Part shown: positions 8,443-34,455 of the stretch, one piece after another
Numbering within the stretch: position 1 is the first letter of the stretch
How the letters are laid out: every line of letters begins with the position of its first letter
Position numbers and translations under genes: made by a program
Notes under the pieces: generated by a model
The model's database searches: none
Told to the model about the DNA's origin: nothing
What the model saw: only the letters and a program-made list of their open reading frames with translations
NCBI GenBank assembly: GCA_937867335.1
Contig: CALMKX010000083.1
Span: 1 to 36,093 of the forward strand
Direction of reading: 5' to 3'
DNA length: 36,093 nt
Origin: an uncultured Acidobacteriota bacterium
GTDB taxonomy: Bacteria; Acidobacteriota; Thermoanaerobaculia; Multivoradales; SZUA-115

Positions 8443-8454
8443 TTTGCTGGGCGC

Positions 8455-9158: not shown

Positions 9159-9159
9159 A

Positions 9160-9350: not shown

Positions 9351-9420
9351 GTTGACCTTGTCTCCCTACTACCTTTACAGGCTCTGAGGGCCCGGCCAAT
9401 CCAACCTGGGCCTTTCAGGT

Positions 9421-10058: not shown

Positions 10059-10064
10059 GATACG

Positions 10065-10094: not shown

Positions 10095-10190
10095 GCGCTG
10101 CCGGATGAAGCCGCCTGGGGCTCACTCCGGCCTGCTGAGCGGCCTCACCTTCACCTGCATCGCCAGCCTCCCCCCTTGAAAGACCAGCAC

Positions 10191-10238
10191 ACTGTGCTTG
10201 ACACAGTACCTGGTGTCGCATACTATGTGTTGAACAGT
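10191..10238 (+). promoter_or_regulatory. PadR promoter with two matching operator-like dyads
   Basis: TTGACA (10198-10203), a 17-bp spacer and TACTAT (10221-10226) form a near-consensus sigma-70 promoter. Two 17-bp dyads overlap it: ACTGTG-CTTGA-CACAGT (10191-10207, perfect 6-bp arms) over the -35, and ACTATGTGTTGAACAGT (10222-10238) over the -10. They share ACTnTG and ACAGT ends and are 31 bp apart centre to centre, about three helical turns. This suits autorepression by two PadR dimers on one face of the DNA. Confidence 0.65.
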
Positions 10239-10250
10239 GGTGGGCGAGAC

Positions 10251-10574: not shown

Positions 10575-10586
10575 ACGGAGGCGGCG

Positions 10587-11492: not shown

Positions 11493-11530
11493 GGGCGCGG
11501 TGCCTGCGTCCGGGCCTGCCCCCGCTTCGT

Positions 11531-14137
<2,607 letters not shown>

Positions 14138-14145
14138 GGCTGGGC

Positions 14146-14153
14146 TCCTCCTT
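14146..14153 (-). promoter_or_regulatory. Strong Shine-Dalgarno that decides the kinase CTG start
   Basis: AAGGAGGA on the minus strand (14153 to 14146) is followed 8 nt later by CTG at 14137. It lies just after the sigma-factor stop (14159-14161). No ATG, GTG or TTG occurs in the kinase frame for the next 47 codons. Confidence 0.7.
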
Positions 14154-14158
14154 CGCGT

Positions 14159-14797: not shown

Positions 14798-14807
14798 GGA
14801 ACAGGGA

Positions 14808-14838
14808 AGCAACTCCTCCAACGATCTCACGAGTTGCT
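14808..14838. promoter_or_regulatory. 8-bp inverted repeat between sigma factor and secreted-protein gene
   Basis: AGCAACTC (14808-14815) and GAGTTGCT (14831-14838) are perfect inverted copies separated by 15 nt. They lie within the 75-bp divergent gap, between the sigma-factor ATG (14797) and the AAGGAGA ribosome site (14861-14867) of the next gene. Their symmetry suits a dimeric regulator of both promoters; a hairpin in the leader is the alternative. Confidence 0.35.
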
Positions 14839-14872
14839 CATAGCCATTTTATTTTCGACCAAGGAGACTACG

Positions 14873-17278: not shown

Positions 17279-17289
17279 GCCTCACATCA

Positions 17290-17326
17290 CCGCCGTGCCG
17301 GCCGAGGCCTCCGGCTGGCACGGCGG
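17290..17326 (+). terminator. Hairpin terminator after the Asp-box protein gene
   Basis: Fourteen base pairs (17290-17303 with 17313-17326, including one G-T) enclose a 9-nt loop. The 3' side continues CTCCTCTTTCCT, moderately pyrimidine-rich. It begins 11 nt after the stop codon. Confidence 0.7.
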
Positions 17327-17586
17327 CTCCTCTTTCCTGAGGCTCCCCACCGGCTCAGCCCAGCCTGTTTCAACTCTTTTCCAGTCAAGCACTTGCAGCA
17401 AGCAGCCGAGCTAGTTCGGGACCGCCCCCGGGCCAGCAAGACAAGGAGTCTCCAAAAAGTAGATCAGAAACTCGTTGACACAAAGGAATCGACCAGGCGA
17501 CAATGTGAACGCAGTTTGATTGATTGCGGCGAGGGGTGGTCTTGCTGACCTGTCCGACTCCTGCCACCGTCTCTTGTCAGATTATC

Positions 17587-17615
17587 TTGATTTCGGGGTA
17601 GTACACCACTACATG
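17587..17615 (+). promoter_or_regulatory. Candidate operon promoter with dyad in the spacer
   Basis: TTGATT (17587-17592) and TACATG (17610-17615) are 17 bp apart, giving a modest match to sigma-70. GTAGT (17598-17602) and ACTAC (17608-17612) form an inverted repeat spanning the spacer and the -10, a typical operator position. The start codon at 17630 would leave a very short leader. Confidence 0.3.
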
Positions 17616-17629
17616 TTGAAGCCTTCGCA

Positions 17630-18751
17630 ATGGCCATAGGCCGTCTCGTTCTAGCTGCCTTCCTGGTGGTCGGGGCGCACTCGCTCTTGCTGGGCGCCTT
17701 GCCGATCTATCTCGCTCGCCAGGGCGCCGGCCCTCTTCTGGTGGGTGTCGCGGTGGGCGCCTACGCAATCTCGGCGGGCCTTCTGCGCCTCCTCGCCGGC
17801 TCCTGGCTCGATCGCCGCTCGACCGGCCCCCTGCTGCGCGGCGCGGCGCTGCTCTTCGCCACCGCCCACCTGGGCTTCGCAGTCCTGCCCGTGGGCTGGG
17901 GCCTTCTGGCTCCTCGGCTGGTCCAGGGCATCGCCGTGTTCTTGTTCTACACCGCCTCCCAGGCCTGGCTGGTTCGCTGCGGCGCGCCGGAGGAGAAAGG
18001 TCGACGGCTGGGGCTCTTCACCGCCGTCTCGGGGCTCGCCCTCATCCTGATGCCGGCCGTGGGAGTCGCCGTCCTGGACTCTCTCGGCGCCCAGACCCTC
18101 TTCCTGCTCTGCGCCGGTGCGGCCCTGCTCTCGGGCCTGCTCGCGGTGGAAGGTCGGCCCGAACCGGCCGACTCGGCACCGGCCTCGATGCGCGATCTCC
18201 TGCCCGCCTTCGCCCCCTTGGTGCTGGCTGGAGTCACTTTGGGCAGCCTCGAGGCCTTCCTGCCGGCGATCGCTCAACGCCAGGGGGTGAGTTCGCTGCC
18301 CCCGGTCTACCTGGCCTTCGGGCTGGCGCTCGCCCTGGGCCGCCTCCTCGGTGGCGCGAGCAGCGATCGGCTGGGCCGGCAGCCGGTGGCCCTACTCGGA
18401 TCGCTCCTGATTTGCGTGGCCTTCGGCCTCGCTTCCGAGGTGCGGGGAGCCCTGGCCGTCTCGGCGATCGCGCTGGTCTACGGCCTCGGTGTGGGCGGCC
18501 TCGGCACGGCCTCGTTGGTGGGCGTTTCCGATCGCGCCGGCCGTGCTCGCCAAGGCCAGGCGCTCGCGCTCGCCGCCTTCTGCCTCGATCTGGGGCTGGC
18601 CCTGGGGGCGGCGAGTTCGGGTCTCCTGGCCCTCGCCCGGCCCGGCGGGATGCTCTGGCTCATGCGCGGGGCAGCGCTTCTCGCCTTGATCTCTTCAGCC
18701 CTGCTGGGCAGCCCCGCCGCGAGGCCCCTGCCGGCGGCCCAGCCTTCCTGA
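17630..18751 (+). CDS. Major facilitator superfamily exporter
   Basis: A 373-residue integral membrane protein, short for MFS but with hydrophobic segments throughout consistent with about 12 helices. The motif-A loop between helices 2 and 3 is visible as AGSWLDRRSTGPLLRGAALL, and the equivalent loop in the second half is LGGASSDRLGRQPVALLGSL. This resembles drug-efflux or sugar-efflux MFS proteins. It is the first gene of the biosynthetic operon, ending 3 bp before the FAAL gene, and probably exports the product or confers self-resistance. No clear ribosome site precedes the ATG, so a leaderless or weakly translated start is possible. Confidence 0.9.
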   Translation: MAIGRLVLAAFLVVGAHSLLLGALPIYLARQGAGPLLVGVAVGAYAISAGLLRLLAGSWLDRRSTGPLLRGAALLFATAHLGFAVLPVGWGLLAPRLVQGIAVFLFYTASQAWLVRCGAPEEKGRRLGLFTAVSGLALILMPAVGVAVLDSLGAQTLFLLCAGAALLSGLLAVEGRPEPADSAPASMRDLLPAFAPLVLAGVTLGSLEAFLPAIAQRQGVSSLPPVYLAFGLALALGRLLGGASSDRLGRQPVALLGSLLICVAFGLASEVRGALAVSAIALVYGLGVGGLGTASLVGVSDRAGRARQGQALALAAFCLDLGLALGAASSGLLALARPGGMLWLMRGAALLALISSALLGSPAARPLPAAQPS

Positions 18752-18754
18752 GCG

Positions 18755-20488
18755 ATGGAGAGCTCCGTGACCACCCCGAATCCCCGGAAAGGGCACTCCC
18801 GCTCGCTGGTCGAGTTGCTGCTGCGCGAGGCTTGCGAGCGCCCCGGTGAGGTTCTCTACCGGTTCTGTCCGCAGGGCGAGGCGGAGAGCTGCGAAGTCCT
18901 GAGCTACGGCGAACTCGAGCGCGATGCCTCTCGGCTCGCCGGGGCCTTGCGGCAGCTCGCCGAGCCCGGCATGCGCGTGCTGCTGCTCTACCCCCCCGGC
19001 CTGGACTACATCCGGGCGTTCTTCGCCTGTCTCCTGGCCGGCATGGTGGCGGTTCCCACCTATCTGCCCCGACCCGGGCGCGGCCTCGCCCGGCTGAAGG
19101 CGATCGCCGGCAGCAGCGGAGCTTCGCTGGCCTTGGCCGGCGCCGCAACAGCCGCCAAGCTCAGCCCTTTCCTCCCCGAGCTGCGCTGGCTGGCGAGCGA
19201 CTCGATCGATGGCGAATCCCCGGCGCTACGGAGCCCCTTCGAGGCGCGGGAAGAAGACCTCGCTTTCTTGCAGTACACCTCCGGCTCGACCGGCTCGCCC
19301 AAGGGCGTGGAGATCACCCACGGCAACTTGCTCGCCAACCTGGCGGTGATCGAGCACTGCTTCGGCCACTCCCGGCAAAGCGTGGGCGTGGCCTGGCTGC
19401 CGCCTTACCACGACATGGGGCTGATCGGCGCCGTCCTGCAACCCCTCTACGCGGGCTTCCCGGTGGTGCTGCTGCCACCGCTCGCTTTCGTCCAGCGGCC
19501 TCTGCGCTGGCTGCAGGCGGTCACCCGCTTTCGTGCCACCGCCACCGGCAGCCCGAACTTCGGCCTCGACCTCTGCCTGCGCAAGATCACCCCGGCCGAG
19601 CGCGACACGCTGGACCTCTCCTCGCTGACGCTGATGTTCACCGGCGCCGAGCCGATCCACGCCGAGACGCTCGAGCGGTTCGCCAGCTACTTCGAGCCCT
19701 GCGGCTTCCGGCGGGAGAGCTTCTACTCTTGCTACGGGCTCGCCGAGGCCACCCTGATGGCGACCGGCAGCCGCCGGGGCGAGCACCCCACGGTGCTACG
19801 TCTGGACGCCGCAGCCCTGGAGGCCGGAGCCGCCCCGGCGGTGAGCGGGCGAGAAACCCGGCAGCGGGAGCTGGTTTCTTGCGGCGAGGCGGTTCCTGGC
19901 CATCGCCTGCTGGTGGTGGACCCGGAAAGCCGCCGGCCCCTCGCCGAGCGCACCGTGGGCGAGATCTGGCTGGCCGGGCCGAGTGTCGCCCGCGGCTACT
20001 GGGCCGAGCCGGAGGCCAGCCGCGAGACCTTCGGGGCGACTCTCGCAGGCGGCGACGGCACACAGTTCCTGCGCACGGGAGACCTCGGCTTCCTGGCCGA
20101 CGGCCAGCTCTTCGTGAGCGGCCGCCGCAAGGACCTGATCATCGTTCGCGGTCGCAACCACTATCCGCAGGACATCGAGCGGACCGTCGAGACCTGTCAC
20201 ATCCTGCTTCGCCGCGACGCCGGCGCCGCTTTCTCCGTGCTGGTGGACGGCGAGGAGCGGCTGGTCGTGGCTCACGAGGTCGACCGGCAGTACCGACCGG
20301 AGCATCGCACGGCGGTCCTTGCGGCGATCCGCGAGGCCATCGCTCGCGACCACGAGCTGCAAGTCTTCGCCATCGCCCTCCTGCGGCCCGCCTCGGTGGC
20401 CAGGACTTCGAGCGGCAAGATCCGCCGCACGGCCATGCGAGAGGCCTTTCTCGCCCAAACCCTCGACCTTGTGGAGAGCCACCCGTGA
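18755..20488 (+). CDS. Fatty acyl-AMP ligase (FAAL)
   Basis: A 577-residue ANL-superfamily adenylating enzyme. FAALs convert a fatty acid and ATP to acyl-AMP and pass the acyl group to an acyl carrier protein rather than CoA. The ATP-binding loop is YTSGSTGSPKGVEITHGNLL (Y174 on). FAAL-type features follow: WLPPYHDMGLIGAVLQPLYA, FVQRPLRWLQAVTRFRATAT and SPNFGLDLC, closer to FadD32/FAAL proteins than to acyl-CoA synthetases. The acceptor-binding part contains LRTGDLGFLADGQLFVSGRR and KDLIIVRGRNHYPQDIE, and the C-terminal catalytic lysine lies in SSGKIRRTAMREAF. The partner ACP is encoded next, with a 4-nt GTGA overlap. Chain length cannot be read from sequence. Confidence 0.93.
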   Translation: MESSVTTPNPRKGHSRSLVELLLREACERPGEVLYRFCPQGEAESCEVLSYGELERDASRLAGALRQLAEPGMRVLLLYPPGLDYIRAFFACLLAGMVAVPTYLPRPGRGLARLKAIAGSSGASLALAGAATAAKLSPFLPELRWLASDSIDGESPALRSPFEAREEDLAFLQYTSGSTGSPKGVEITHGNLLANLAVIEHCFGHSRQSVGVAWLPPYHDMGLIGAVLQPLYAGFPVVLLPPLAFVQRPLRWLQAVTRFRATATGSPNFGLDLCLRKITPAERDTLDLSSLTLMFTGAEPIHAETLERFASYFEPCGFRRESFYSCYGLAEATLMATGSRRGEHPTVLRLDAAALEAGAAPAVSGRETRQRELVSCGEAVPGHRLLVVDPESRRPLAERTVGEIWLAGPSVARGYWAEPEASRETFGATLAGGDGTQFLRTGDLGFLADGQLFVSGRRKDLIIVRGRNHYPQDIERTVETCHILLRRDAGAAFSVLVDGEERLVVAHEVDRQYRPEHRTAVLAAIREAIARDHELQVFAIALLRPASVARTSSGKIRRTAMREAFLAQTLDLVESHP

Positions 20489-22086
20489 GCCCTGATCATT
20501 CTCCCGCCGACTTCGTGGAGGAGCGTGCGTCGAAGCCTCTGCAGGCGCCGGAAGCGAGCCCCGGCGGCGAACTCGTGCTCGAAGACCTCCGCGCCGAGCT
20601 CGCGGCCAGCGCCGGCCTGTCTGCCGACGAAGTGGCGCCGGACCTGCCGATCCTGAGCCTGGGCCTGGACTCCCTGCGGATGGCCGAGCTCCAGGCCTTG
20701 CTCGAGCGCAGCTACGGCTTCGAGCTGGAGCTCGACGAGCACCTCGACGCGCTGACCCCTCGCGCCCTGGCTGGCAGGATCGCCGGCTGGCTCGAGCAGA
20801 GGGGTCCGGGGCGGGCCGCGAAGGCCCGCGACGCCCGCCCGAGCTCGCCCGGAGTTCCCCTCGATCCCCTGCAGCAGGCCCGCGACTTCACCCTGGCCCG
20901 CGAGCTCCGCGCCAAGGACCTCCTGCCCTATTACGTCGAGCTCGCCCGCAACGACGGCGACATCTGCAGCCATCGCGGTCGCGACGCGATCATGCTGGGC
21001 TCGGGCAACTATCTCGGCCTCACCACCGACCGCCGGGTACGCAAGGCGGTCGCAGCCGCGGCGCTGGTGGAAGGCTCGAGCCTCACCGGCTCGCGGCTCT
21101 TTAACGGCACCACCACGCTGCATCGAGCCGTGGAAGAGAAGCTGGCGGCGTTTCTGGGCCGTGGCGATGCCCTGATCTTCACCACCGGGTACCAGGCCAA
21201 CCTCGGCATGCTTTCGGCCTTGATGGGTGCCGGCTCGGTGCTCTTCGCCGACGAGTCCTGCCACGCTTCGATCTTCGACGGCGCCCGCGTGGCGGGCTGC
21301 CAGGTGATCGCCTTCCGCCACAACGACCCCAGCGACCTCGACCGCCGGCTCTCCCGGCGGCCCTCGCGGCCCACGCTGGTGATCGTCGACGGCGTCTACT
21401 CGATGCACGGCGACCTCTCGCCGATCGAGGAGGTCCGCGAGGTCTGCGACCGCCACGAGGTTCGCCTGGCCCTCGACGACGCCCACGGCATCGGCACCCT
21501 CGGCCGCTCGGGCAAGGGCAGCGAGGAGCACGTGGGGCGGATCGGGCTGGCGGATATCCTGTCGGGAAGCCTGTCCAAGAGCCTCGCCTCGGTGGGCGGC
21601 TATGTGGCCGGAGATCCGGACGTCATCGACTGGATCCGCTTCCGGGGGCGGTCGATCGTGTTCACCGCCGCCATCCCGCCCACCGCCCTCGCCGCCGCCT
21701 CGGCCGCCCTCGACATCCTCCAGGCCGAGCCCTGGCGGCTCACCCGGCTGCGAGACAACGCGAGCTATTGGCGCGGTGGTCTAAAGCGCCTCGGCTTCGA
21801 GGTCGCCACCTCGGCCTCCGCCATCGTGCCGGTGCTGATCGGCGACGACACGAAGTGCATGGCGGCGGCCCGGTCGCTGCTCGAGAGGGGAGTTTTCGTC
21901 AACTGCGCCGTGCATCCGGCCGTGCCCCAGCAAGGGGCCCTGCTGCGCACCACGGTGATGGCCACTCATAGCCGCGAGCAGCTGGATGCCGGCCTGGCCG
22001 CCTTCGCGGAGGTCGGGGCCGAGCTGGGCCTGCTCCGAGCCCGCTCGTCCCGCTCGCAAACCGCCCAAGGAGGGGCGAATCCATGA
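20485..22086 (+). CDS. ACP-alpha-oxoamine synthase fusion (PLP-dependent)
   Basis: A 533-residue bifunctional protein starting at GTG 20485. Residues 30-105 are an acyl carrier domain with the phosphopantetheine serine S63 in LSLGLDSLRMAEL. Residues 140-515 are an alpha-oxoamine synthase of the AONS/KBL/SPT/CqsA group: SGNYLGLTTD, TGSRLFNGTTTLH, DDAHGIGTLGRSGKG (D331, H334) and the PLP-lysine segment GSLSKSLASVGGYVAGD (K365). Such enzymes decarboxylatively condense an acyl thioester with an amino acid to give a 2-amino-3-ketone, as in sphingolipid or prodigiosin-branch biosynthesis. Fusion to an ACP next to FAAL implies the acyl chain is delivered on S63. The amino acid used (Ser, Ala or Gly) is unknown. 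It overlaps the next gene by 4 nt (ATGA). Confidence 0.93.
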   Translation: MSPDHSPADFVEERASKPLQAPEASPGGELVLEDLRAELAASAGLSADEVAPDLPILSLGLDSLRMAELQALLERSYGFELELDEHLDALTPRALAGRIAGWLEQRGPGRAAKARDARPSSPGVPLDPLQQARDFTLARELRAKDLLPYYVELARNDGDICSHRGRDAIMLGSGNYLGLTTDRRVRKAVAAAALVEGSSLTGSRLFNGTTTLHRAVEEKLAAFLGRGDALIFTTGYQANLGMLSALMGAGSVLFADESCHASIFDGARVAGCQVIAFRHNDPSDLDRRLSRRPSRPTLVIVDGVYSMHGDLSPIEEVREVCDRHEVRLALDDAHGIGTLGRSGKGSEEHVGRIGLADILSGSLSKSLASVGGYVAGDPDVIDWIRFRGRSIVFTAAIPPTALAAASAALDILQAEPWRLTRLRDNASYWRGGLKRLGFEVATSASAIVPVLIGDDTKCMAAARSLLERGVFVNCAVHPAVPQQGALLRTTVMATHSREQLDAGLAAFAEVGAELGLLRARSSRSQTAQGGANP

Positions 22087-22985
22087 CGCAGACAGCCGCC
22101 CTCGAAAGCCCGACCGCCGAAGCCGCCGACTTCCTCGCCCGGTGGGGCCTCACGTTCAACGACCTGGCGCTCCAGGTGGGTCCGCTCGCGGACTCGGAGA
22201 CGTTGCTCCTGGTGGGCTCGATCGCCGAAGGCCTCGCCAACCCGCTCTCGGATATCGACCTGATGATTCTCGGCGACGGCACCCTGCGCCAGGGCGTGCT
22301 GATCAACGAGGCCGAGTTCGAGCAGTCGGTGCGCCGCCTCGACGGTGGCGAGGAGCTCAACGTCGAGTACTGGCGCAGCGACGACGTCGCGCGGATCGGC
22401 GATCGGCTGCGGGAAGTGGTGACCGTGATCCAGGATCCGGCGCGCTTCGTCAAGCTCGAGACCTTCAGCGAGATGGAGCTGCGCTTCCTGCACCGGATGC
22501 ACACCGGCATTCCGCTGGTCAACGCCGACAACGCCGAACGCTGGCGCAGCCAGCTCGGGCTCGGCGGCCTGCGCGACTACTTGGTCCTGCATTGGCTGAC
22601 CCTGCACTACACCTACCGCGAGGACACCATCGCGCAGGTGCAGTACGGCGACTCCTTGACCGCTCTCACCACCCTGCGCATGGCGATGGACGCGCTGGCG
22701 GCGGCAGCTCTCGCCACCGTGGGCGAAACCCATTTCCACCCCAAATGGCGCCCTCGCCTGCTCGAGCGCCAGCGGGACGCCCTGGGCGCCGAGATCGTCG
22801 ATCCCCTGGTCGCCTCGCTCTTCCCGGCCCTCGCCTCCGACGCCGGCCGGCTCGCCCGCGAGGCCCTGGGCTTCGCCGACGGCGTGATCCAGATGCTGAT
22901 CGGCAGATCGATGCATCTGGTGCCGGCGATGCTCGAGCTCAACAAGCTGATCAGCTTCGTGGGCACCTTCGAGGGCGGCCGGTGA
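22083..22985 (+). CDS. Nucleotidyltransferase-fold protein (Pol beta superfamily)
   Basis: A 300-residue protein. LLLVGSIAEGLANPLSDIDL holds the G-S (45-46) and D-x-D (D57, D59) motif of minimal nucleotidyltransferases, and E95 in ELNVEYW is a fitting third carboxylate, so metal-dependent NMP transfer is plausible. The C-terminal two-thirds is helical (LHWLTLHYTYREDTIAQVQY, LTTLRMAMDALAAAALATVG), like the acceptor-binding half of aminoglycoside nucleotidyltransferases. The substrate is unknown. Position inside the operon with 4-nt overlaps on both sides argues for a pathway role: transient adenylylation of an intermediate, or modification of the product for self-protection. Not assigned to a named family. 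Confidence 0.75.
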   Translation: MTQTAALESPTAEAADFLARWGLTFNDLALQVGPLADSETLLLVGSIAEGLANPLSDIDLMILGDGTLRQGVLINEAEFEQSVRRLDGGEELNVEYWRSDDVARIGDRLREVVTVIQDPARFVKLETFSEMELRFLHRMHTGIPLVNADNAERWRSQLGLGGLRDYLVLHWLTLHYTYREDTIAQVQYGDSLTALTTLRMAMDALAAAALATVGETHFHPKWRPRLLERQRDALGAEIVDPLVASLFPALASDAGRLAREALGFADGVIQMLIGRSMHLVPAMLELNKLISFVGTFEGGR

Positions 22986-24655
22986 CCCTGATCGCCCCCG
23001 TGGCCAGGACGGCCGAGCCGCTGCTCGGCGAGTTCCGGACGGGCCCGGAGAGGCCGGGCCGGGGCCTCGAGCTGCGCTTCCAAGGGGAGCTCACCAACCT
23101 CGAGGAGCTCGCCCGCCGGCTGAACCGCCCTGCGCTCGAGGGCGACCCCGTGCCCCTGCTCACCGAGCTCTATCGGCGACTCGGCGCCGGCTTCGTGGCC
23201 GATCTCCGAGGCTCGTTCGCCCTGGCGGTGGAGGATCCCGCCGAGCAGCGCTTGCTGCTCGCCCGGGATCGCCTGGGCCGGGAGCCGCTGTTCTACTCGC
23301 CGATCGCCCGGGGCCTTGCCTACTCCTCGCGGCTCGAGCGCCTCGCTTGCCGGCCGGACCTCTCCCGCGAGCTCGACCTGGAAGCGCTCAACCTGTACCT
23401 CGCCTTCCAGTTCTTCCCGCTCGATCGCACCGCCTTCCGCAGCGTGCGCAAGCTGCCGGCCGGCCATCTTCTGGAGCTCGGCCCGAGCGGCCTTAGTTGC
23501 TCGCCCTACTGGCTTCCGGCTTTCGACGACCAGGCTCCCGCCAAGGCCCAAGCCGAACTGGACCGCGAACTCGAGATGCGTCTCTTGGCCTCATTCCGCC
23601 GCCTGCCGCAGGCGGACGGGCCCCAGGGCGCCTTCGCGAGCGGCGGCATCGACTCTTCCACCAACCTGGTGTTCCTTTCGCGCTCGAGCCGCCGGGCGGT
23701 GGCGCTGACGGCGGCCTTCGAGGATCCGGACTACGACGAATCCCGGGACGCCGCCGAAGTCGCCAGTGCGCTCAGCTTCGAGCACCGCGTGGTCGCGGTG
23801 GGCGAGCGCCACCTCGAGCGCCTCGCCACCCTCGCCGCCCACCTCAACGAACCGATCGGCGACCAAGCGGTGCTGCCCACCTCGGTGCTCTTGGAGACGG
23901 CCTCGAGCGACCTTTCCGGAATCGTTTCGGGCGAGGGGGGCGACGAGCTCTTCGGCCCGCCTCGGCGCTTCGGAGAGGCCCGGCCGCTCGCCGAGCCGGT
24001 TCGGGAAGTGGGCGCCCTGGCCCGGGACTACGCTGAGCGGATCGCCTGCTGCCCGGGGGCGCTGCGCCGCGGCCTGCTCGCCGGCACGAGCCCCGAGGAA
24101 GAGATTCTCGGCGCTCCCGCGGCGCTGCTCCAAAGCCTCTACCGGCGCAGCGCGGCAACCGACCGCTTCTTCCTGCTGAAGCTCGGCCAGCTGTTCACCT
24201 GGCTGCCGGACAACGTGCTGGCCAAAGACCGGGACCTCGCCGGCAGCCGCGGCCTGGTGGCGCGCTTTCCGCTGATCGACGATGCGGTGGTCGAGCTGGT
24301 GTCGAGCCTGTCGCCGGCGGATCACCTGGCGGCTTGCCTGGACAAAGGCCTGCTGCGGCGCCAACTCGCACCGTTCCTGCCCGCCGGTACTCTGGCCAAG
24401 CCCAAGCACCGCTTCCTGGTGCCCGTCTGCCGCTGGCGGGGGCCAGCCTTCCTGCAAGCTGCCCAGGAGGCGCTCGCCTCACCGAGCTCGCTCACCCGAG
24501 ATCTCTACGCGCCGGCGGCGGTCGCAAACCTGCTCACCGGCCAGGCGTCCGGAGATCCGGCTGCGGCCCGCCCGCTCTGGGCGCTCCTGGTTCTGGAGTA
24601 TTGGTTGCGTCACATAGAGTCGGTTGCAAAAGCGAGGGATCGATGGGACCGCTGA
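22982..24655 (+). CDS. Asparagine-synthetase-like amide ligase lacking the glutaminase nucleophile
   Basis: A 557-residue AsnB-superfamily protein starting at GTG 22982. The C-terminal ATP-pyrophosphatase domain is complete, with SGGIDSS (220-226) and SGEGGDELFG, and should adenylate a carboxylate. The N-terminal class II glutaminase domain is shortened by roughly 40 residues: it has no Cys2, no RGPD segment, and the usual FNGE is FQGE (33-36). Ammonia cannot come from glutamine in this protein, so it should use another amine, as in beta-lactam synthetase, carbapenam synthetase or lasso-peptide cyclase. In this operon it may join the amino ketone or amino alcohol to a carboxylate or close a ring. 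A second, intact AsnB homologue lies three genes downstream. Confidence 0.88.
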   Translation: MTLIAPVARTAEPLLGEFRTGPERPGRGLELRFQGELTNLEELARRLNRPALEGDPVPLLTELYRRLGAGFVADLRGSFALAVEDPAEQRLLLARDRLGREPLFYSPIARGLAYSSRLERLACRPDLSRELDLEALNLYLAFQFFPLDRTAFRSVRKLPAGHLLELGPSGLSCSPYWLPAFDDQAPAKAQAELDRELEMRLLASFRRLPQADGPQGAFASGGIDSSTNLVFLSRSSRRAVALTAAFEDPDYDESRDAAEVASALSFEHRVVAVGERHLERLATLAAHLNEPIGDQAVLPTSVLLETASSDLSGIVSGEGGDELFGPPRRFGEARPLAEPVREVGALARDYAERIACCPGALRRGLLAGTSPEEEILGAPAALLQSLYRRSAATDRFFLLKLGQLFTWLPDNVLAKDRDLAGSRGLVARFPLIDDAVVELVSSLSPADHLAACLDKGLLRRQLAPFLPAGTLAKPKHRFLVPVCRWRGPAFLQAAQEALASPSSLTRDLYAPAAVANLLTGQASGDPAAARPLWALLVLEYWLRHIESVAKARDRWDR

Positions 24656-25470
24656 ACCGAGAGGAGTACACCATTCTCGCCCAGGGCCTGTTTCGCGAGC
24701 CCCAGGTGCTCGTCCACTACGACCCCGACGGGCTCAACCGCACGCTGTCTCCGGCGCTCGCGCTGCGCATCGAGGAGCAGTGGCGGCAGGCCGAGCTCCG
24801 GGCCCGAACGCTGGGGCGGGACCTCTTCAACTCGCCGCTCTTCCGCCTGGCGGAGATCCGCACCGGCTCGCATTCGTCCCTCTCCCTGGGCCTCGGGGAT
24901 ACCGACTACCGCGAGTACCTCGAGAGCCGAGCCCATCCCCACGAGACTCCTCGCGCCGACCCTCTGGGCACCGCGGTGATCGTGTTCACCACCGACGGCC
25001 TGGTTCCCGTGGGCAAGCGCTCGCAGCGAGTGGAGGTGAACCCGGGGCGCTATTTCACCTTCGGCGGCTTCTTCGACCGCGGGCTCGACTGGCGAGCGGG
25101 CGGCAACGAGCCCAGCTTGTTCGGCTGTGCCCGCCGCGAGCTCGAGGAGGAGTTGGGGATCCAGGTCCCGGAGCAGGACCTGCGCTTGCTGGGCATCATC
25201 TACGACCAGCGCCATCCCCATCCCGAGGCCTGCTTCCTGGCCCCGGCCGGCAAGACGGGCGTGGAGCTCTTGGCCTCGCGGGATGCCGAGGAGATCTCGG
25301 ATCTCTTGCTGGTGCCCCTCGCCGGGCTGGCGAGCTTCCTCGAAGAAGAACAGAGCCGGATCTGCGAGAGCCTGCGGGGAGGCTTCGAGATCTTCCTGCG
25401 CCTCCTCGAGCGTGGCGCGCCGTTCGGCGACGGGCCGGCCTGGGCACCGCTGGTGGAGACCCTGTCATGA
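24643..25470 (+). CDS. Nudix-domain protein, NUDT22-like layout
   Basis: A 275-residue protein starting at ATG 24643, 13 nt inside the previous gene. Residues 165-173, RELEEELGI, are the core of the Nudix box; the upstream Glu is offset by one position, so the box is slightly non-canonical. Ahead of it LFNSPLFRLAEIRTG, SLGLGDTDYREYLES, DPLGTAVIVFTTDGLVPVGK and RSQRVEVNPGRYFTFGGFFD resemble, from memory, the order of elements in eukaryotic NUDT22-type UDP-sugar hydrolases. Nudix enzymes cleave nucleoside diphosphates linked to another moiety. With a nucleotidyltransferase and an NDK-like protein in the same operon, it may remove a nucleotidyl group or cleave an NDP-linked intermediate. Overlaps the next gene by 4 nt (ATGA). 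Confidence 0.8.
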   Translation: MGPLNREEYTILAQGLFREPQVLVHYDPDGLNRTLSPALALRIEEQWRQAELRARTLGRDLFNSPLFRLAEIRTGSHSSLSLGLGDTDYREYLESRAHPHETPRADPLGTAVIVFTTDGLVPVGKRSQRVEVNPGRYFTFGGFFDRGLDWRAGGNEPSLFGCARRELEEELGIQVPEQDLRLLGIIYDQRHPHPEACFLAPAGKTGVELLASRDAEEISDLLLVPLAGLASFLEEEQSRICESLRGGFEIFLRLLERGAPFGDGPAWAPLVETLS

Positions 25471-26597
25471 ACGGGGGCCCCGAGCCCCTCCTCGCGCGGC
25501 TCGGGCTGGAGGAGTCGAGCTACTTCGTGGCCCAGGGGTATCACCGCCCCTTCCTCGACGCCCTGCTCCAGGAGGTTCCGGAAGCGGAGCTCCGCCGCCT
25601 GGCCCACCTCACGTTCGCGTTGCTCAAGCCCGACACGGTGCTGTCGGCCAGAGTCCGGCCAGCGCTCGCGCTCCTGGCGCAAGCCGGGCTGGAAGTGGTC
25701 GACCTCGGGGTTTGTCTGAGCACTCATCCGCGACAGTTCGAGGAGCTCTACAAGACCAACCTGACGGTCTACAACCAGCAGAACATGGTGGGAGCCTGGT
25801 GGCTCAACCACCAGATCTACGAACTCGCCCCGGTGGTGACGCTGCTGCTCGCCCTGCCAGGGGAGGGGGCGGGCGATGCCCAGCGGCGGCTGGCCGCGGT
25901 GAAGGGGCCTTCGAGCCCCTATCTCTGCCAGCCCGACCAGCTGAGGGCCCGGCTCGAGGCCTCCAACCGCTCGATCAACCTGCTCCACACGGCGGACGGT
26001 CCGGTCTCCTCGGCCCGCGAATACCTGCTGTTCCAGCCTCTCTCCCGGCTGCGGGAAGCGCTCGCTCGCCTGGACGGCGGGAGCGGCTGCCGGCCTTTCC
26101 CCGCAAGCCGGCTCGAAGCCGAGCTCGCGACCCTGCCGGGGGCGTTCGTGGAAACCGACTTCCTGCGCGTCTTGACCACCCTCAAAGCGCGGCTCCACAA
26201 GGCCCTGCTCGAGCAAGGCGCCCTCGCCGAGGAGCCGCAGGCGAGCTCGCTCCGAGAGCAAGCGGCCGTCGCCGCCGGGGGAGAGCCGCTGCTGGAACGT
26301 ACCCGCGCCTACCGAGAGCTCAGCCATCGCGAGCTCGCGAGCCTCGGGCAGCTCGCTCGAACCGCCTCCTGCCCCTTGCTCGAGGCGGCGCTCTCGCTCG
26401 CCGACTTCGACCATCTCGACCTCGCCGTGGCCCGCAGCACGGTGGCGGCTTTCCGCGGTGCCGGCCTCTACCTTTCGGCCTGGGAGCAGCTCCTGCTGGA
26501 AACCAGCTGCTACTACCTGGACGACTTCCTGGCCGGAGAGCCGGCAGGCCCGAGTCCCCGGCGATCGGTCGATCGGGCCCCGGGAATGAGGAGGTAG
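25467..26597 (+). CDS. Protein with nucleoside-diphosphate-kinase-like domain and novel C-terminal half
   Basis: A 376-residue protein. Residues 47-189 track the NDK fold: HLTFALLKPDTVLSARV (K54 matches the phosphate-binding lysine), LSTHPRQFEELYKTNL, VKGPSSPYLCQPDQLRARLE (R160 near the usual TIRGD arginine) and NRSINLLHTADGPVSSAREY. The catalytic pair keeps its N-x-x-H spacing (N171, H174), so phosphohistidine chemistry may survive, although HGSDS has become HTADG. About 45 residues precede and 185 helical residues follow this domain, whereas normal NDKs are about 140 residues in total. I do not recognise the extension. Its place in a biosynthetic operon suggests a phosphotransferase or nucleotide-binding role on a pathway intermediate rather than housekeeping NTP synthesis. 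Confidence 0.75.
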   Translation: MNGGPEPLLARLGLEESSYFVAQGYHRPFLDALLQEVPEAELRRLAHLTFALLKPDTVLSARVRPALALLAQAGLEVVDLGVCLSTHPRQFEELYKTNLTVYNQQNMVGAWWLNHQIYELAPVVTLLLALPGEGAGDAQRRLAAVKGPSSPYLCQPDQLRARLEASNRSINLLHTADGPVSSAREYLLFQPLSRLREALARLDGGSGCRPFPASRLEAELATLPGAFVETDFLRVLTTLKARLHKALLEQGALAEEPQASSLREQAAVAAGGEPLLERTRAYRELSHRELASLGQLARTASCPLLEAALSLADFDHLDLAVARSTVAAFRGAGLYLSAWEQLLLETSCYYLDDFLAGEPAGPSPRRSVDRAPGMRR

Positions 26598-26602
26598 GCC
26601 CG

Positions 26603-28495
26603 ATGTGCGGGATCGCCGCCACCCTCGACCCGGCCCGCGAGCTGCCGCCGGGCCTGGTGAACCTGATGCTCGCCCGCCAGTACAGCCGCGGGCCGGACGC
26701 CGCGGGAGTTCTCAGTGCCGGCGCGGTGACGCTCGGGCATCAGCTGCTGCGCATCCTGCCCTGCCCGCGCTCACGCCAGCCGATGGAGAGCCAGGACCGC
26801 TCGCTCGCGATCTCGTTCAACGGCGAGATCTACAACTACCTCGAACTGCGCCGGGAGCTGGAAGACGCCGGCGGCCGGTTCGACACCGAGACGGACACCG
26901 AGGTGATCCTCGAGGCGTTCCGACTGTGGGGGCTACCGGGGCTCTCGCGGCTCAACGGCATGTTCGCCTTCGTGCTGCACGATCGCCGGCGCCGGCAGGT
27001 GCACCTGGTGCGCGATCGCTTCGGCCAGAAGCCGCTCTATCTGCGTTCCAGGGGCGGCCAGCACTTCGTGGCCTCGGCCCTGGCCTCGCTGCTGCTGCCG
27101 GCGATCGGCCCCGCTCGCCTCGATGAGCAGGCCCTCGCGGACTATCTGCTCACGCTCAACACGTTCGAGCACAGGAGCCTGTTCGCCGGCATCGAGCACG
27201 TTCCCGCGGGCACCTGCTTGACCCTGGCCGAAGACGGCCGGCGCCTCGGGGCGCAGGCCCTCGCCCGGGTCGCCTTCGAGCCGGACGAGGCGGCAGGGAA
27301 CCTCGACCAGGCCGCCGAGCAGCTCTGGGCCCTGCTGCGCCAGGCGGTCCATCGCCAGACCCGCAACGTCGAAGGCCTGGCGAGCCATCTGAGCGGCGGC
27401 CTGGATTCGAGCGCCCTCGCCCTGGCGCTGAAGTCCTCGGCCCCGCTTCCCTTCGCCACCTACTCCTGCGCCTACGAAACCGGCACAGGCGACGCGGTTC
27501 TGCGCGAGGAGCGCGGCTTCGAAGAGTCGCACTACGCTCGCCAGGTGGCCCGCCGCCACGGGCTCATCAACGTTCCCGTGAGGGTGGGCCCCGGCGACTA
27601 CTTTCGCCTCCTGGCCGAGCTGGTGGACACCCTGGAGGAGCCCAAGGGCAACCCCTGCCTGCCGCACTTCATGCTGGCCCGGCGGATCTCGCTCACGCAT
27701 CGGGTCTTCGTCAGCGGCGAGGGTGCGGACGAGCTGCTCGGGGGTTATCCCTGGAAGCTCGCCGCCGCCCAGGAAGCCACCCCGGCCGAGGTGGAGCGGA
27801 CGTTCTTCCGCCTCCTCCTGCCGGCCGAGCAGGGCGCGCTCGAGGAGACCTTTCTGCCCTCGACCCTCACTGCCGAGGGCGTCTGGGCTCGCTTCCGCTC
27901 CGCCCTCGCGCTGGCCAGCGCTGCGAGCCCCCTCGACGCCTTGATGAGCTACGACCTCCGCCAGTTCCTGCATTACCTCCTCATCCAGGCTGACAAGCTC
28001 GCCGGCCATTTCGCTCTCGAAGGGCGCTACCCCTTCCTCGACAACGACTTCGCCGCCTTCGCCCTCTGCCTGCCCCGGCAGCTGCGCTCGGGTGATCTGC
28101 ACACCGCCAAGCCGGTGCTGCGCCGCGCTCTTCTGGAGCGGCTGCCCTCGGCGATCCTCGCCCGCCCCAAGGTGGGCTTCGTGCCACCCGAGGGCTCCTG
28201 GTACGGCCGGGAGCTCCGGCCCCTGGTGGAGCGGCTGCTCCTGGGCCCGCAGAGCTTCGTGCTGTCCCTGGCCCAGCCGGAGCGCCTGCGGGCCTTGTGG
28301 CAGCAGCACCTCGGCGGCCAACGCAACTACCGCAAGCTGATCTGGGGCCTGATCTCGCTCGAGCTCTGGCACCGCCGTTTCCTGCAGGGCCAGGGGCGAC
28401 AAGCGCTCGAAGAGGAGATCCTGGCCGCCGCTCCCACCGAGATCGTGCGTTCCATTCCGCCGAGGATGCCCCATGCTGATCGCCTCGCGTACTGA
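26603..28495 (+). CDS. asnB: Glutamine-dependent asparagine synthase-like amidotransferase
   Basis: A 630-residue complete AsnB homologue with GAGGAGG before the ATG. The nucleophile is Cys2 in MCGIAAT, with SRGPD (R29-D32), the oxyanion block FNGEIYNYLEL (72-82), and the synthetase loop SGGLDSS (264-270) followed by SGEGADELLGGYPWK. It should hydrolyse glutamine and pass ammonia to an adenylated carboxylate. True asparagine synthetases are usually about 500-590 residues; the slightly longer length and operon context suggest amidation of a pathway carboxylate instead of aspartate, as for AsnB-like tailoring enzymes in lipopeptide and polyketide clusters. Five bp separate it from the NDK-like gene, and its 3' end overlaps the P450 start by 23 nt. 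Confidence 0.92.
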   Translation: MCGIAATLDPARELPPGLVNLMLARQYSRGPDAAGVLSAGAVTLGHQLLRILPCPRSRQPMESQDRSLAISFNGEIYNYLELRRELEDAGGRFDTETDTEVILEAFRLWGLPGLSRLNGMFAFVLHDRRRRQVHLVRDRFGQKPLYLRSRGGQHFVASALASLLLPAIGPARLDEQALADYLLTLNTFEHRSLFAGIEHVPAGTCLTLAEDGRRLGAQALARVAFEPDEAAGNLDQAAEQLWALLRQAVHRQTRNVEGLASHLSGGLDSSALALALKSSAPLPFATYSCAYETGTGDAVLREERGFEESHYARQVARRHGLINVPVRVGPGDYFRLLAELVDTLEEPKGNPCLPHFMLARRISLTHRVFVSGEGADELLGGYPWKLAAAQEATPAEVERTFFRLLLPAEQGALEETFLPSTLTAEGVWARFRSALALASAASPLDALMSYDLRQFLHYLLIQADKLAGHFALEGRYPFLDNDFAAFALCLPRQLRSGDLHTAKPVLRRALLERLPSAILARPKVGFVPPEGSWYGRELRPLVERLLLGPQSFVLSLAQPERLRALWQQHLGGQRNYRKLIWGLISLELWHRRFLQGQGRQALEEEILAAAPTEIVRSIPPRMPHADRLAY

Positions 28496-29816
28496 GACCC
28501 GGCTGCCTCCGGGCCCGCCGGGCCCCGCCCTGTGGCAGACCCTGCAGTGGATCTCCCGGCCCTGCCCCTACCTCGACCACTGCCACCGCCGCTTCGGCGA
28601 GATCTTCACGTTGCGCTTCAGTGGCTGGGGGACGATGGTGTTCCTCAGCAACCCCGAAGCCATCCGCGAGGTGTTCGCGGCGGGGCCCGAGCAACTCCAC
28701 GCCGGTGCCGCCAACGAGATCATGCGGCCGCTGCTGGGGGATCACTCGATCCTCATGATCGACGGCAGCCGCCATCTGCAACGCCGCCGCCTCCTGCAGC
28801 CCACCGTCCACCCCCGCTCCTGGGTCTCGCTCGCCGCCGAGGTGCAGAGCAGCGCCGAGCGGATGGCCTCCACCCTGCCCCTCGGTCGCGTTTTCTCCCT
28901 CCAGAGCCACCTCGAGGCGGTGTCCATGGAGACCATCCTGCGCGTGGTCTTCGGGCCGGCGGCCCGGGAGCAGAGCGGCGAGTTCGCCGAAGTGCTGCGC
29001 GCCGTGCTCGGCCCCGGCAGCGCCGCGGTGGCCTTCTTGAAGCCGCTGCAGCGCAACCTCGGCCCCTTGAGCCCCGGCGGCTGGTTCCGCGCCCGGGTGG
29101 ACCGTCTCCACCGCCTCATCACTCCCCATATCGAGCGCAGCCGCCGCGATGGGCCGGACCCCACCACCGCGCTCGGCGCCCTGCTCGCGGCCCGCGACGA
29201 AGCGGGAGAGCCGCTCTCCGAGGGCGAGCTCCTGGACCAGGTGGTGACCCTCCTGGTGACCGGGCAGGACCCGCCCGCCACCGCCATGGCCTGGGCGTTC
29301 CATTGGCTGCTCTCGACTCCGGGAGTGCTCGAGCGGCTCACCGACGAGATCGCCCCGGTGCCCGCGGACGCCGCGGAGAAGCTGCTCGAGCTGCCCTACC
29401 TCGAAGCTGTCTGCCGCGAAGCGCTGCGCATCGTGCCGGTGGTGGAGGCGGTGCAGCGGGTGGCCCGGGTGCCCTTCGCCCTCGCCGGTTTCGAGATCCC
29501 GCCGGGAGTGATGGTGGCGCCCTGCGCCTACCTGGTGCATCGCCGGCCCGATCTCTATCCGGATCCCGAGCTCTTCCGCCCGGAGCGCTTCCTGGAGCGC
29601 AGCTTCTCCGCCAGCGAGTTCCTGCCCTTCGGCGGCGGCACCCGCAAATGTCTGGGGGCTCCCCTCGCTTTGCTCGAGATGAAGGTGGTGGTGGCCACCC
29701 TGCTGCGCCGCTTCGAGCTGCGGCGCCATGAGCCGGAGAAGCTTCAGCCCTCCCGCCGCAACGTCACGGTGGCACCGTCCGACGGCACCCGGGTGATCGC
29801 GGAGCCCAGGAGATGA
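28473..29816 (+). CDS. Cytochrome P450 with unusual I-helix
   Basis: A 447-residue P450, normal bacterial length. The heme ligand is C393 in FLPFGGGTRKCLGAPLA, the ExxR pair is E316/R319 in REALR, and an N-terminal RLPPGPPGPALWQTL proline hinge is present. The overall pattern resembles the CYP110-like fatty-acid or lipid hydroxylases. The oxygen-activation motif in the I-helix, normally A/G-G-x-D/E-T-T, reads T-G-Q-D-P-P-A-T (263-270): the acidic residue is kept but both threonines are prolines. This may alter proton delivery and so the reaction type. It starts inside the asnB-like gene and is 37 bp before the SDR gene. No ferredoxin gene is present, so electrons must come from elsewhere. Confidence 0.93.
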   Translation: MLIASRTETRLPPGPPGPALWQTLQWISRPCPYLDHCHRRFGEIFTLRFSGWGTMVFLSNPEAIREVFAAGPEQLHAGAANEIMRPLLGDHSILMIDGSRHLQRRRLLQPTVHPRSWVSLAAEVQSSAERMASTLPLGRVFSLQSHLEAVSMETILRVVFGPAAREQSGEFAEVLRAVLGPGSAAVAFLKPLQRNLGPLSPGGWFRARVDRLHRLITPHIERSRRDGPDPTTALGALLAARDEAGEPLSEGELLDQVVTLLVTGQDPPATAMAWAFHWLLSTPGVLERLTDEIAPVPADAAEKLLELPYLEAVCREALRIVPVVEAVQRVARVPFALAGFEIPPGVMVAPCAYLVHRRPDLYPDPELFRPERFLERSFSASEFLPFGGGTRKCLGAPLALLEMKVVVATLLRRFELRRHEPEKLQPSRRNVTVAPSDGTRVIAEPRR

Positions 29817-29853
29817 GCTCGGAGCCTGCCGTGACCCGGCCCGGGAGAGCGCG

Positions 29854-30849
29854 GTGATCGCCCTGGTCACCGGCGCGAGCGGCTTTCTGGGCGGAGCGCT
29901 CGCCCGGCGGCTGGTGGAGGAGGGCCACCGGGTGCGCATTCTGGCCCGCCCGGCGAGCCGCCTGGACCACCTCTCCGACCTGCCGCTCGAGGTGGTTCGC
30001 GGCGCACTCGAGGAGCCGCCGAGCCTCGAGCTGGCCCTTTCCGGGGCGCGGCTGGTTTTCCACTGCGCCGCCTGCTCGACGGATTGGGCCCCCTGGCGTG
30101 ACTACCGGCTCGCGAACGTGGTCGGCCCCGGCAACCTGGCGGCTGCCGCTCTGCGCTCCACCACCCTCGAGCGCGTGGTGCACGTGAGCAGCACCGACGT
30201 CTATGGCTATCCGCGCTCCCCCGGCCCGGAGAGCTCGCCCCTCCTCGACGTGGGCCTGCCCTACAACCGCAGCAAGATCCTCGGCGAGCAGGTGTTGCGC
30301 CAGGCGGCGGAACAACACGGCCTGCCCCTGACCATCCTGCGGCCGGCCACCATCTACGGGCCGCGGAGCAAGGATTTCGCACTCGAGATCGGCGAGCTGC
30401 TGCTGGCCGGAAAGATGCTCTATCTCGACGGCGGTGCCGCACCGGGAGGCTTCGTCTACATCGACCATGCCGTGGATGCGCTGCTCGCGGCCGCGTCCAC
30501 ACCGCAGGCCCTCGGCAAGGTCTACAACCTGACCGACGGCGGCAGCCAGACCTGGCGGCAGTACGTCGAGGCGCTCGCCCGGGAGCTGGGCGTGGTGGCG
30601 CCACGAAAGTCGCTTCCCTCGGCGGTCGCTCTCGCTCTGGCGCGGCTCATGGAGTTCCTCTGGAGAGCTCTGCGGCGCCATCATCGGCCGCTGCTCACTC
30701 GCCACGCCGTGTTCTTGTTCTCTCGCAGCCAGGCCTTCCCCAATCGCCGTGCCCGCGACGAGCTGGGGTTCCGGCCGACCCTGCCTTTCGAAACGGCCGT
30801 CGGGCGGACCGCCCGGTGGTTCCAAGACCAGCCGCGCCGCGCCGCCTGA
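29854..30849 (+). CDS. Extended SDR / NAD-dependent epimerase-dehydratase-like oxidoreductase
   Basis: A 331-residue enzyme from GTG 29854. The N-terminal Rossmann motif is TGASGFLGG (6-14), the active-site pair is Y137-x3-K141 in PYNRSK, with S112/S113/T114 as the catalytic serine or threonine region. The C-terminus (LMEFLWRALRRHHRPLLTRH, RRARDELGFRPTLPFETAVG) is that of 3-beta-hydroxysteroid-dehydrogenase-like extended SDRs. In Caulobacter-type bacterial sphingolipid synthesis the 3-ketosphinganine reductase belongs to this same superfamily, so reduction of the 2-amino-3-ketone made by the upstream oxoamine synthase is a reasonable guess. An epimerase or dehydratase role on a sugar is the alternative. 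It is 19 bp from the methyltransferase gene. Confidence 0.88.
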   Translation: MIALVTGASGFLGGALARRLVEEGHRVRILARPASRLDHLSDLPLEVVRGALEEPPSLELALSGARLVFHCAACSTDWAPWRDYRLANVVGPGNLAAAALRSTTLERVVHVSSTDVYGYPRSPGPESSPLLDVGLPYNRSKILGEQVLRQAAEQHGLPLTILRPATIYGPRSKDFALEIGELLLAGKMLYLDGGAAPGGFVYIDHAVDALLAAASTPQALGKVYNLTDGGSQTWRQYVEALARELGVVAPRKSLPSAVALALARLMEFLWRALRRHHRPLLTRHAVFLFSRSQAFPNRRARDELGFRPTLPFETAVGRTARWFQDQPRRAA

Positions 30850-30868
30850 TCGGGCCCTGGAGGACAGC

Positions 30869-31579
30869 ATGCTCACCCTGGACGACACCGGAGAACGGAT
30901 GATCCCCCTGCAGGTCGCCGCCGAGGACTCCCTCACCCGGCAGCTCCTGGAACACTCCCTCGAGCGCTACCGCAAGGCTCTCCCCTACGTCGGCGGCAAG
31001 CGGGTGCTCGACATCGCCTGCGGCTCGGGCTACGGCAGCCGCATGCTGCTCGATGCCGGCGCCCGGGAGGTGGTCGGGGTGGACCTCTCGCCGGAAGCCG
31101 TGGGCTACGCCGAGGCCACCTATGGCTGCCCAGGGCTGCGCTTCGTGGCGAGCGACGCGATGAGCTTCGAGGGCGGCGGCTTCGATGTGATCACTTCCTT
31201 CGAGACTCTGGAGCACGTTCCGGACCCCCGGCTGTTCCTCGCCACGCTCCGCAGCCGACTCGGCCCGGGCGGCCTCTTGCTCCTCTCCGCTTCCACGGTT
31301 CCGACCTCGGACCTCTACGTCTTCCACCTCCACGACTTCGATGCCGACGAGCTGCGGCGGCTGGTTCGAGAGGCGGGCCTGGAGATCTGCGACGAGCTCG
31401 AGCAGCACGACCGCTTCACTCCTCGCCAGGTTCGCCTGGCCCTGCGCCTGCACACCGGCAGCCTGCCGCCGAGCCGCATCCTGCGCGCACCTCTGCACTA
31501 CCTGCGCCGTGGACTCGAGGTGTTGGTGCTGCGCGGGCTGGACTACCGCAATCTGCTGCTGGTGTGCGCGCCGGCTTGA
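30869..31579 (+). CDS. Class I SAM-dependent methyltransferase
   Basis: A 236-residue protein with GGAGGA ahead of the ATG. SAM-binding motif I is VLDIACGSGYGSRML (46-60), followed by VVGVDLSPEAVGYAEATYG, the FDVITSFETLEHVPDP strand with the usual LEHV, and LGPGGLLLLSAST. The start DDTGERMIPLQ is typical of Methyltransf_11/UbiG-like enzymes found in glycan and natural-product loci. It is the last gene of the operon and probably caps an O or N of the product; the acceptor cannot be deduced. A hairpin follows and the next gene is convergent. Confidence 0.92.
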   Translation: MLTLDDTGERMIPLQVAAEDSLTRQLLEHSLERYRKALPYVGGKRVLDIACGSGYGSRMLLDAGAREVVGVDLSPEAVGYAEATYGCPGLRFVASDAMSFEGGGFDVITSFETLEHVPDPRLFLATLRSRLGPGGLLLLSASTVPTSDLYVFHLHDFDADELRRLVREAGLEICDELEQHDRFTPRQVRLALRLHTGSLPPSRILRAPLHYLRRGLEVLVLRGLDYRNLLLVCAPA

Positions 31580-34273: not shown

Positions 34274-34315
34274 CGTTGCCTCCAGAAGGGGGATGAAGTG
34301 CGGTCCGCGGTGAGA

Positions 34316-34345
34316 CGGCGCCGCCACCCACGGCGCGCGGCGCCG
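34316..34345 (-). terminator. GC-rich hairpin between YceI and subtilase genes
   Basis: CGGCGCCGC (34316-34324) pairs perfectly with GCGGCGCCG (34337-34345) with a 12-nt loop. It lies downstream of the YceI gene and about 43 nt upstream of the subtilase start, so it could terminate YceI transcription or structure the protease leader. No T-tract; the region is so GC-rich that chance pairing is possible. Confidence 0.25.
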
Positions 34346-34455
34346 CCGGCGGTGCCAGGCCCCGGCAGGCTTACAGGGCTCAGCGCTGACCACGATCTCT
34401 GCCTCCCATGAAACACCAAGGAGTGCTTCGAGTCAACGCGCCTGGAGGTATTCGA

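Follow-up and report, generated by a model that had tools for sequence, protein, structure and literature searches.

A candidate specialised-metabolite operon of an uncultured Acidobacteriota bacterium joins sphingoid-type lipid-amine genes to a nucleotide-handling gene set

What product would call for a fatty acid activating enzyme, an oxoamine synthase, two amide ligases and three nucleotide-handling proteins encoded side by side? This question is raised by an operon at positions 17630-31579 of a 36,093-nucleotide stretch of DNA, hereafter the window, that comprises positions 1 to 36,093 of contig CALMKX010000083.1 (assembly GCA_937867335.1) from an uncultured Acidobacteriota bacterium of the Multivoradales. 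According to the open reading frame (ORF) listing of the window, eleven ORFs lie there head to tail, all on the + strand, and searches of Pfam and NCBIfam back a family name for each of them, in agreement with the names given in a preliminary description of this DNA, even if the matches for two of the genes are weak. Our answer, which we regard as evenly balanced between right and wrong, is that this is a cryptic specialised-metabolite operon whose lipid-amine product is tailored and exported. The combination of lipid-amine and nucleotide chemistry is apparently undescribed. The operon and its candidate promoter are composed as follows:

17475-17504, + strand, candidate promoter-like site, TTGACA-18-GACAAT (consensus scan: 1 found against 0.1 expected)
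17630-18751, + strand, major facilitator superfamily (MFS) exporter (Pfam MFS_1, 1.1e-41)
18755-20488, + strand, fatty acyl-AMP ligase (FAAL) of the type that loads nonribosomal peptide and polyketide synthases (NRPS/PKS) (AMP-binding, 3.1e-67; TSGSTGSPKG motif)
20485-22086, + strand, GTG start, acyl carrier protein (ACP) fused to an alpha-oxoamine synthase (AONS), similar to serine palmitoyltransferase (SPT) (PP-binding, 9.1e-10; Aminotran_1_2, 2e-52)
22083-22985, + strand, MNT-type nucleotidyltransferase (NT) (NTP_transf_2, 27.1 bits; weak DUF6001; motif GSIAEGLANPLSDID)
22982-24655, + strand, GTG start, AsnB-1, amide ligase resembling asparagine synthetase but lacking the glutaminase Cys (Asn_synthase, 6.7e-48)
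24643-25470, + strand, Nudix hydrolase (NUDIX, 3.3e-7, 30.8 bits)
25467-26597, + strand, phosphotransferase similar to nucleoside diphosphate kinase (NDK), of a long NDK-like family (Pfam NDK, 27.5 bits; family profile, 63.8 bits)
26603-28495, + strand, AsnB-2, glutamine-dependent, with Cys2 (TIGR01536, 315 bits, cut-off 267)
28473-29816, + strand, cytochrome P450 (p450, 7.7e-66; heme motif FGGGTRKCLG)
29854-30849, + strand, GTG start, extended short-chain dehydrogenase/reductase (SDR) of the epimerase/3-oxo reductase type (Epimerase, 7.3e-34; GASGFLG, YNRSK)
30869-31579, + strand, S-adenosylmethionine-dependent methyltransferase (Methyltransf_23, 7.9e-21)

The tight packing noted in the preliminary description is borne out by the ORF coordinates, with 4-nt overlaps at four junctions (FAAL/ACP-AONS, ACP-AONS/NT, NT/AsnB-1 and Nudix/NDK-like) and +3, -13, +5, -23, +37 and +19 nt at the remaining six, the largest gap being 37 nt. 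On the 5' side, a 351-bp intergenic region containing the single promoter-like site separates the operon from the gene of a BNR-repeat protein, which ends at 17278; on the other side, a convergent S8 protease gene (31634-34393) marks the boundary. That the eleven genes form one pathway is suggested by this packing, by overlaps that couple the translation of core genes to that of accessory ones, and by the finding of the accessory set in other loci. Since the genome also carries a normal NDK (contig C278, 169.5 bits) and a further AONS-family enzyme (contig C71, 33% identity to that of the operon), the NDK-like protein and the AONS of the operon are extra rather than housekeeping copies.

The chemistry of the operon would begin with its core, the FAAL and the ACP-AONS protein. 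The latter carries the ACP serine (GLDSL motif), the pyridoxal phosphate (PLP) lysine (SKSL motif) and the fold-I AONS domain that characterise an ACP-linked AONS, and its best PDB match is with SPT structures (1.7e-89). To judge from these families and motifs, the core supports the conversion of a fatty acid and an amino acid to a 2-aminoketone: the FAAL would convert a free fatty acid to its acyl-AMP and transfer the acyl group to the ACP domain encoded just downstream, and the SPT-like PLP domain would then condense this group with an alpha-amino acid, which may be Ser, Gly or Ala, in a decarboxylative reaction, yielding a 2-amino-3-ketone. Scanning 84,980 species genomes with the AONS recovered 80 relatives, the top two of which belong to Nitrospira (46%) and a deltaproteobacterial metagenome-assembled genome (44%), while most of the others sit in proteobacterial spt loci, close to a FAAL-like gene and in many cases to an SDR gene as well. 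As this is the AasR-AcpR-SPT arrangement that, together with epi/CerR and an N-acyltransferase, forms the gene set of Caulobacter and other Rhodobacteria (PMC9386255), the parallel to bacterial sphingoid synthesis drawn in the preliminary description is mechanistically sound.

At the level of the individual genes, however, that parallel breaks down, and this bears on whether the operon could instead be a canonical bacterial sphingolipid pathway (AasR-AcpR-SPT-CerR) that makes a ceramide membrane lipid and has acquired unusual head-group genes. In favour of such a pathway, FAAL, ACP, SPT and SDR together make up the Rhodobacteria gene set (PMC9386255), loci of that kind are what the AONS query retrieved, and the dedicated ACP of the ceramide gene set is present here as the PP-binding domain fused to the AONS. 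The FAAL, however, scores 388 bits on the AasR-type model PRK09192, below the cut-off of 600 that the FAALs of genuine spt loci pass (L044, 736 bits; L018, 842 bits), and is best matched by the N-terminus of PRK05691 (511 bits), a loading FAAL of NRPS/PKS proteins. The AONS stays under every SPT cut-off (NF047600, 372.9 bits, cut-off 640; NF047599, 367 bits, cut-off 500); relatives from putative spt loci likewise remain under the NF047600 cut-off (L011, 479; L119, 444). Non-proteobacterial relatives reach 444-525 bits on the SPT model versus 373 for the window protein. In the AONS tree, it occupies a branch of its own outside the SPT groups, with 94/89 at the joining node and long branches nearby that make the placement unsure. 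The SDR, which is nearer to HpnA (151 bits) and OleD (138 bits), shares about 27-35% identity with the SDRs of spt loci; unlike it, two of those SDRs (L014 and L044) have no NCBIfam match at 1e-25. As far as its sequence goes, the window SDR is not clearly a CerR/epi reductase. We also found no candidate for the ceramide N-acyltransferase in the operon, and the presumed N-acyltransferase of Nitrospira (L011) had no match in the 391 contigs of the genome, in a search that had no positive control. Finally, a ceramide pathway offers no role for two AsnBs, a P450, an NT and a Nudix hydrolase, and we consider it improbable. Given the FAAL and AONS scores, an SDR more like HpnA/OleD and the lack of a match to the presumed N-acyltransferase, we favour SPT-type chemistry placed within a specialised-metabolite operon.

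The remaining enzymes could then elaborate the aminoketone. The SDR would reduce the ketone, the P450 would hydroxylate the chain, and the methyltransferase might cap a hydroxyl or amine, while AsnB-1 could form an amide with a free amine and AsnB-2 install an amide nitrogen from glutamine. AsnB-1 is indeed the Cys-less AsnB previously announced, as it begins with MTLIAPV and has no Cys2, but it retains the ATP loop (SGGIDSS); AsnB-2 begins with MCGI and has the loop SGGLDSS. A reading of the two AsnBs as lasso-peptide enzymes was rejected, as they score 81 and 160 bits on NF033535 against a cut-off of 525 and the operon contains no gene for a leader-peptide protease or RiPP recognition element. 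The I-helix of the P450 reads TGQDPPAT and thus lacks the usual acid-Thr pair, so that oxygen activation may be unusual in this enzyme. The MFS protein would export the product. The view that amide-ligase, nucleotide-handling and export genes point to a tailored, secreted compound is upheld, on the basis of gene families. A very different outcome would be that the ACP-AONS protein supplies a heterocycle precursor, as PigH/RedN does for prodiginines, and that the pathway ends in a pyrrole or pyrazine instead of an amino alcohol of the sphingoid type. Free 2-aminoketones cyclise readily, and an ACP-AONS fusion with 34% identity over both ACP and AONS is found in a prodiginine-like plasmid cluster (L095); nevertheless, the aminoketone would need to escape the SDR, the PKS, nitroreductase and acyl-CoA dehydrogenase genes of L095 have no counterpart in the operon, and the tree places the window AONS closer to SPT-like proteins than to the L095 enzyme, all of which makes a heterocyclic product very improbable in our judgement.

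The lipid-amine reading leaves the nucleotide-handling genes to be accounted for, and here a point was missed in the preliminary description: such genes recur together, and the cluster for the phosphonopeptide argolaphos is a precedent from the literature. Judged by its sequence, the NDK-like protein is a member of a family of long NDK-like proteins, a membership recognised here for the first time; the other members come from cryptic clusters in Streptomyces, Enterobacter and a proteobacterium. When the window protein is left out of the family profile, its residues 32-296 still match that profile with 63.8 bits, a stretch that reaches beyond the NDK domain. On the housekeeping NDK equivalog NF001908 the protein scores 21.3 bits, below the cut-off of 155. 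Its K54, R160, N171, H174 and D177 align with the housekeeping enzyme; across the family alignment, the active-site His, Lys/Arg, Arg and Asp of NDK are kept, the nucleotide-binding stretch differs, and a C-terminal extension is added. The Nudix box has an intact RELEEELGI core, with its upstream half spaced one residue longer. Relatives of the NT were found in L091, L108, L112 and L110, a kinship based on pairwise BLAST (1e-11 to 6e-5) and on a profile in which the window NT is itself included; no model of a resistance family in Pfam or NCBIfam matched this protein. As a background, neither the NDK-like nor the NT family had a match among the 1205 ORFs (1.43 Mb) of 84 loci that had been retrieved for unrelated purposes.

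One of these relatives comes from L091, on the Rhizobium leguminosarum plasmid pRLTp73_2, whose NT shares 25% identity with that of the window (blastp 2e-11) and belongs to a phosphonate-type cluster (6667-18837) with phosphoenolpyruvate (PEP) mutase, phosphonopyruvate decarboxylase, NTP_transf_3, AsnB, TauD-like, HprK-like and TMK-like genes. A profile of the two NT sequences led to L108, a proteobacterial operon of an NDK-like protein (26.6% to the window protein), a class III aminotransferase, a formyltransferase-like protein, a TMK-like kinase, GGACT, NT and MFS genes, and its proteins used as queries yielded nine long NDK-like proteins from Streptomyces and Enterobacter plasmids as well as the Agrobacterium locus L112, with NT, TMK and MFS. 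The window, L108 and L110 each have an NT of the same kind beside an NDK-like gene, and L091, L108 and L112 have it beside genes for TMK-like kinases; as L108 was found through the NT and L110 through the NDK-like protein, these two co-occurrences are not circular. They are few, with a window-type NT in 1/9 of the plasmid NDK-like loci and an NTP_transf_5 protein in 2/9. The NTs of the latter two loci (L109 and L111), being of this other kind, were left out of the NT profile. In L108 and L112 the NT is accompanied by an MFS gene, as is AlpM in the argolaphos cluster according to published annotation. Relatives of the Nudix hydrolase on Rhizobium and Streptomyces plasmids have unrelated surroundings.

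Some of these loci deserve mention in their own right. In L109 (9974-12325, Streptomyces anulatus plasmid), the long NDK-like domain is fused to an amidohydrolase within a YcaO/TOMM cluster that also holds an inositol-monophosphatase-like gene and the NTP_transf_5 nucleotidyltransferase. In L111 (4969-17206, Enterobacter chuandaensis plasmid), the NDK-like gene is accompanied by genes for two iron-containing redox enzymes, an aminotransferase, an M14 peptidase, MFS, NTP_transf_5 and histidine phosphatase proteins. The Streptomyces virginiae plasmid locus L110 (8522-13036) has an MtnA-like isomerase gene between two NDK-like genes, with a DUF6001-like NT gene nearby. On Agrobacterium tumefaciens pAt1, L112 (3223-17723) has its NT, TMK, MFS and Nudix genes near PyrF-like, nucleoside phosphorylase and dihydroorotate dehydrogenase genes, and is possibly an unusual pyrimidine nucleotide pathway.

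What, then, might the nucleotide-handling proteins do in the operon? In the most speculative step that we propose, the NDK-like protein, as a histidine phosphotransferase, and the NT would add a phosphate or nucleotidyl group to an intermediate as a handle or protecting group, which the Nudix hydrolase would later take off, following a logic that has been proposed for argolaphos and is known for FR-900098. More broadly, NT, NDK-like protein, Nudix hydrolase and exporter may constitute a portable module that is added to unrelated pathways, to phosphonates elsewhere, as in argolaphos and in the Rhizobium plasmid cluster where the NT stands with other kinases, and to a lipid amino alcohol here. 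Its handle would be put on, kept during amide formation and then taken off, and synthesis would pass through a nucleotidylated sphingoid-type intermediate; this we hold to be unlikely. The main competing explanation for this part of the operon is self-protection, in which the NT would nucleotidylate the product to inactivate it inside the cell, in the manner of aminoglycoside and lincosamide nucleotidyltransferases, and reactivation would fall to the Nudix hydrolase or a later step. The MNT (KNTase-like) motif of the NT and the exporter genes beside the NT in several loci speak for it, but the NT matches no resistance family model, and its repeated occurrence alongside TMK-like and NDK-like kinases, and with a PEP mutase pathway, is explained at least equally well by a biosynthetic step, so that we see self-protection as rather unlikely.

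Several points weigh against our reading of the operon. The family assignments of the NT and the NDK-like protein depend on weak Pfam scores with thin margins (27.1 bits, cut-off 21, and 27.5 bits, cut-off 27, respectively), and single-sequence AlphaFold models of the two were poor (pLDDT 43 and 35) and unusable for fold search. Their likeness to AlpM and AlpE of argolaphos is one of annotation rather than of compared sequences, 6/9 plasmid NDK-like loci have no recognised nucleotidyltransferase within ~10 kb, and the sequence does not reveal which amino acid and acyl group are used. Conservation, moreover, lends no evidence, as no relative of the operon turned up in the genomes searched: neither with the NDK-like protein in 386-396 genomes of the same phylum (386 for the family profile), nor with the NT in 297 or the NT profile in 376 of them, nor with the Nudix hydrolase in 72 genomes of the same order, the matches being the window itself, housekeeping genes and weak fragments only. 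The NT profile found no second operon in two genomes of the same family, and pattern scans for the NDK-like protein, which find close relatives only, gave none across GTDB or in viral contigs.

The operon points to a functionally unassigned family of NDK-like proteins with intact-looking catalytic residues, encoded by cryptic clusters in Streptomyces, Enterobacter and proteobacteria. If the nucleotide enzymes here and in argolaphos do act on pathway intermediates, this would help in assigning functions to many cryptic clusters at once. The argolaphos-type link also makes the operon more testable than was supposed in the preliminary description. Outside the operon, a C-terminal domain of ~210 residues with no Pfam name (16658-17272, +, and 31643-32278, -) is common to the flanking BNR-repeat protein and S8 protease, respectively, at 46% identity, and a serine/threonine-kinase-like gene (11531-14830, -) adjoins an ECF sigma factor of TIGR02999 type (196 bits).

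In line with the preliminary description, the literature searched contained no characterised cluster with the same gene content, and the systems that come near share only parts of it. Like the operon, the Rhodobacteria set has an SPT-type PLP enzyme, a specialised ACP, an extended SDR and a dedicated acyl-ACP synthetase from the FAAL superfamily, but its ACP is separate, its FAAL is of another subfamily, and it has an N-acyltransferase and is without AsnB, NT, NDK and Nudix. In the SgaAB sphinganine cluster of Pseudomonas fluorescens MYb115, too, an SPT-like oxoamine synthase is at the centre of a bacterial specialised-metabolite pathway (PMC12134224). Although the two systems have that enzyme in common, SgaAB takes its acyl chain from a PKS and consists of two genes only, with no tailoring set. 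Prodiginine enzymes of the PigH/RedN type, exemplified by L095 with its 34% identity, show the same ACP-oxoamine synthase fusion, but their partners are PKS and pyrrole enzymes. The FR-900098 pathway, whose Nudix enzyme is FrbI, is alike in its logic, in that a nucleotide is put on an intermediate and later taken off by Nudix, but the acceptor is a phosphonate and the nucleotidyltransferase is of another family. That nucleotidyltransferase is the cytidylyltransferase FrbH, as cited in the argolaphos paper (PMC8976061). The argolaphos (alp) cluster of Streptomyces monomycini itself encodes AlpB (NUDIX), AlpE (NDK, 291 aa), AlpM (nucleotidyltransferase, 291 aa) and AlpN (MFS), as listed in Table 1 of that paper, together with three amide ligases, and its authors propose that a CMP conjugate is formed by the KNTase-like AlpM ahead of the peptide bond, giving no role to AlpE and AlpB (PMC8976061). 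It differs from our operon in its PEP mutase phosphonate core, in amide ligases of the ATP-grasp and GNAT type rather than two AsnBs, and in having no FAAL, AONS or P450, but, matched by published annotation only, both systems combine an NT, an NDK-like protein, a Nudix hydrolase and an MFS exporter with amide ligases in a single operon.

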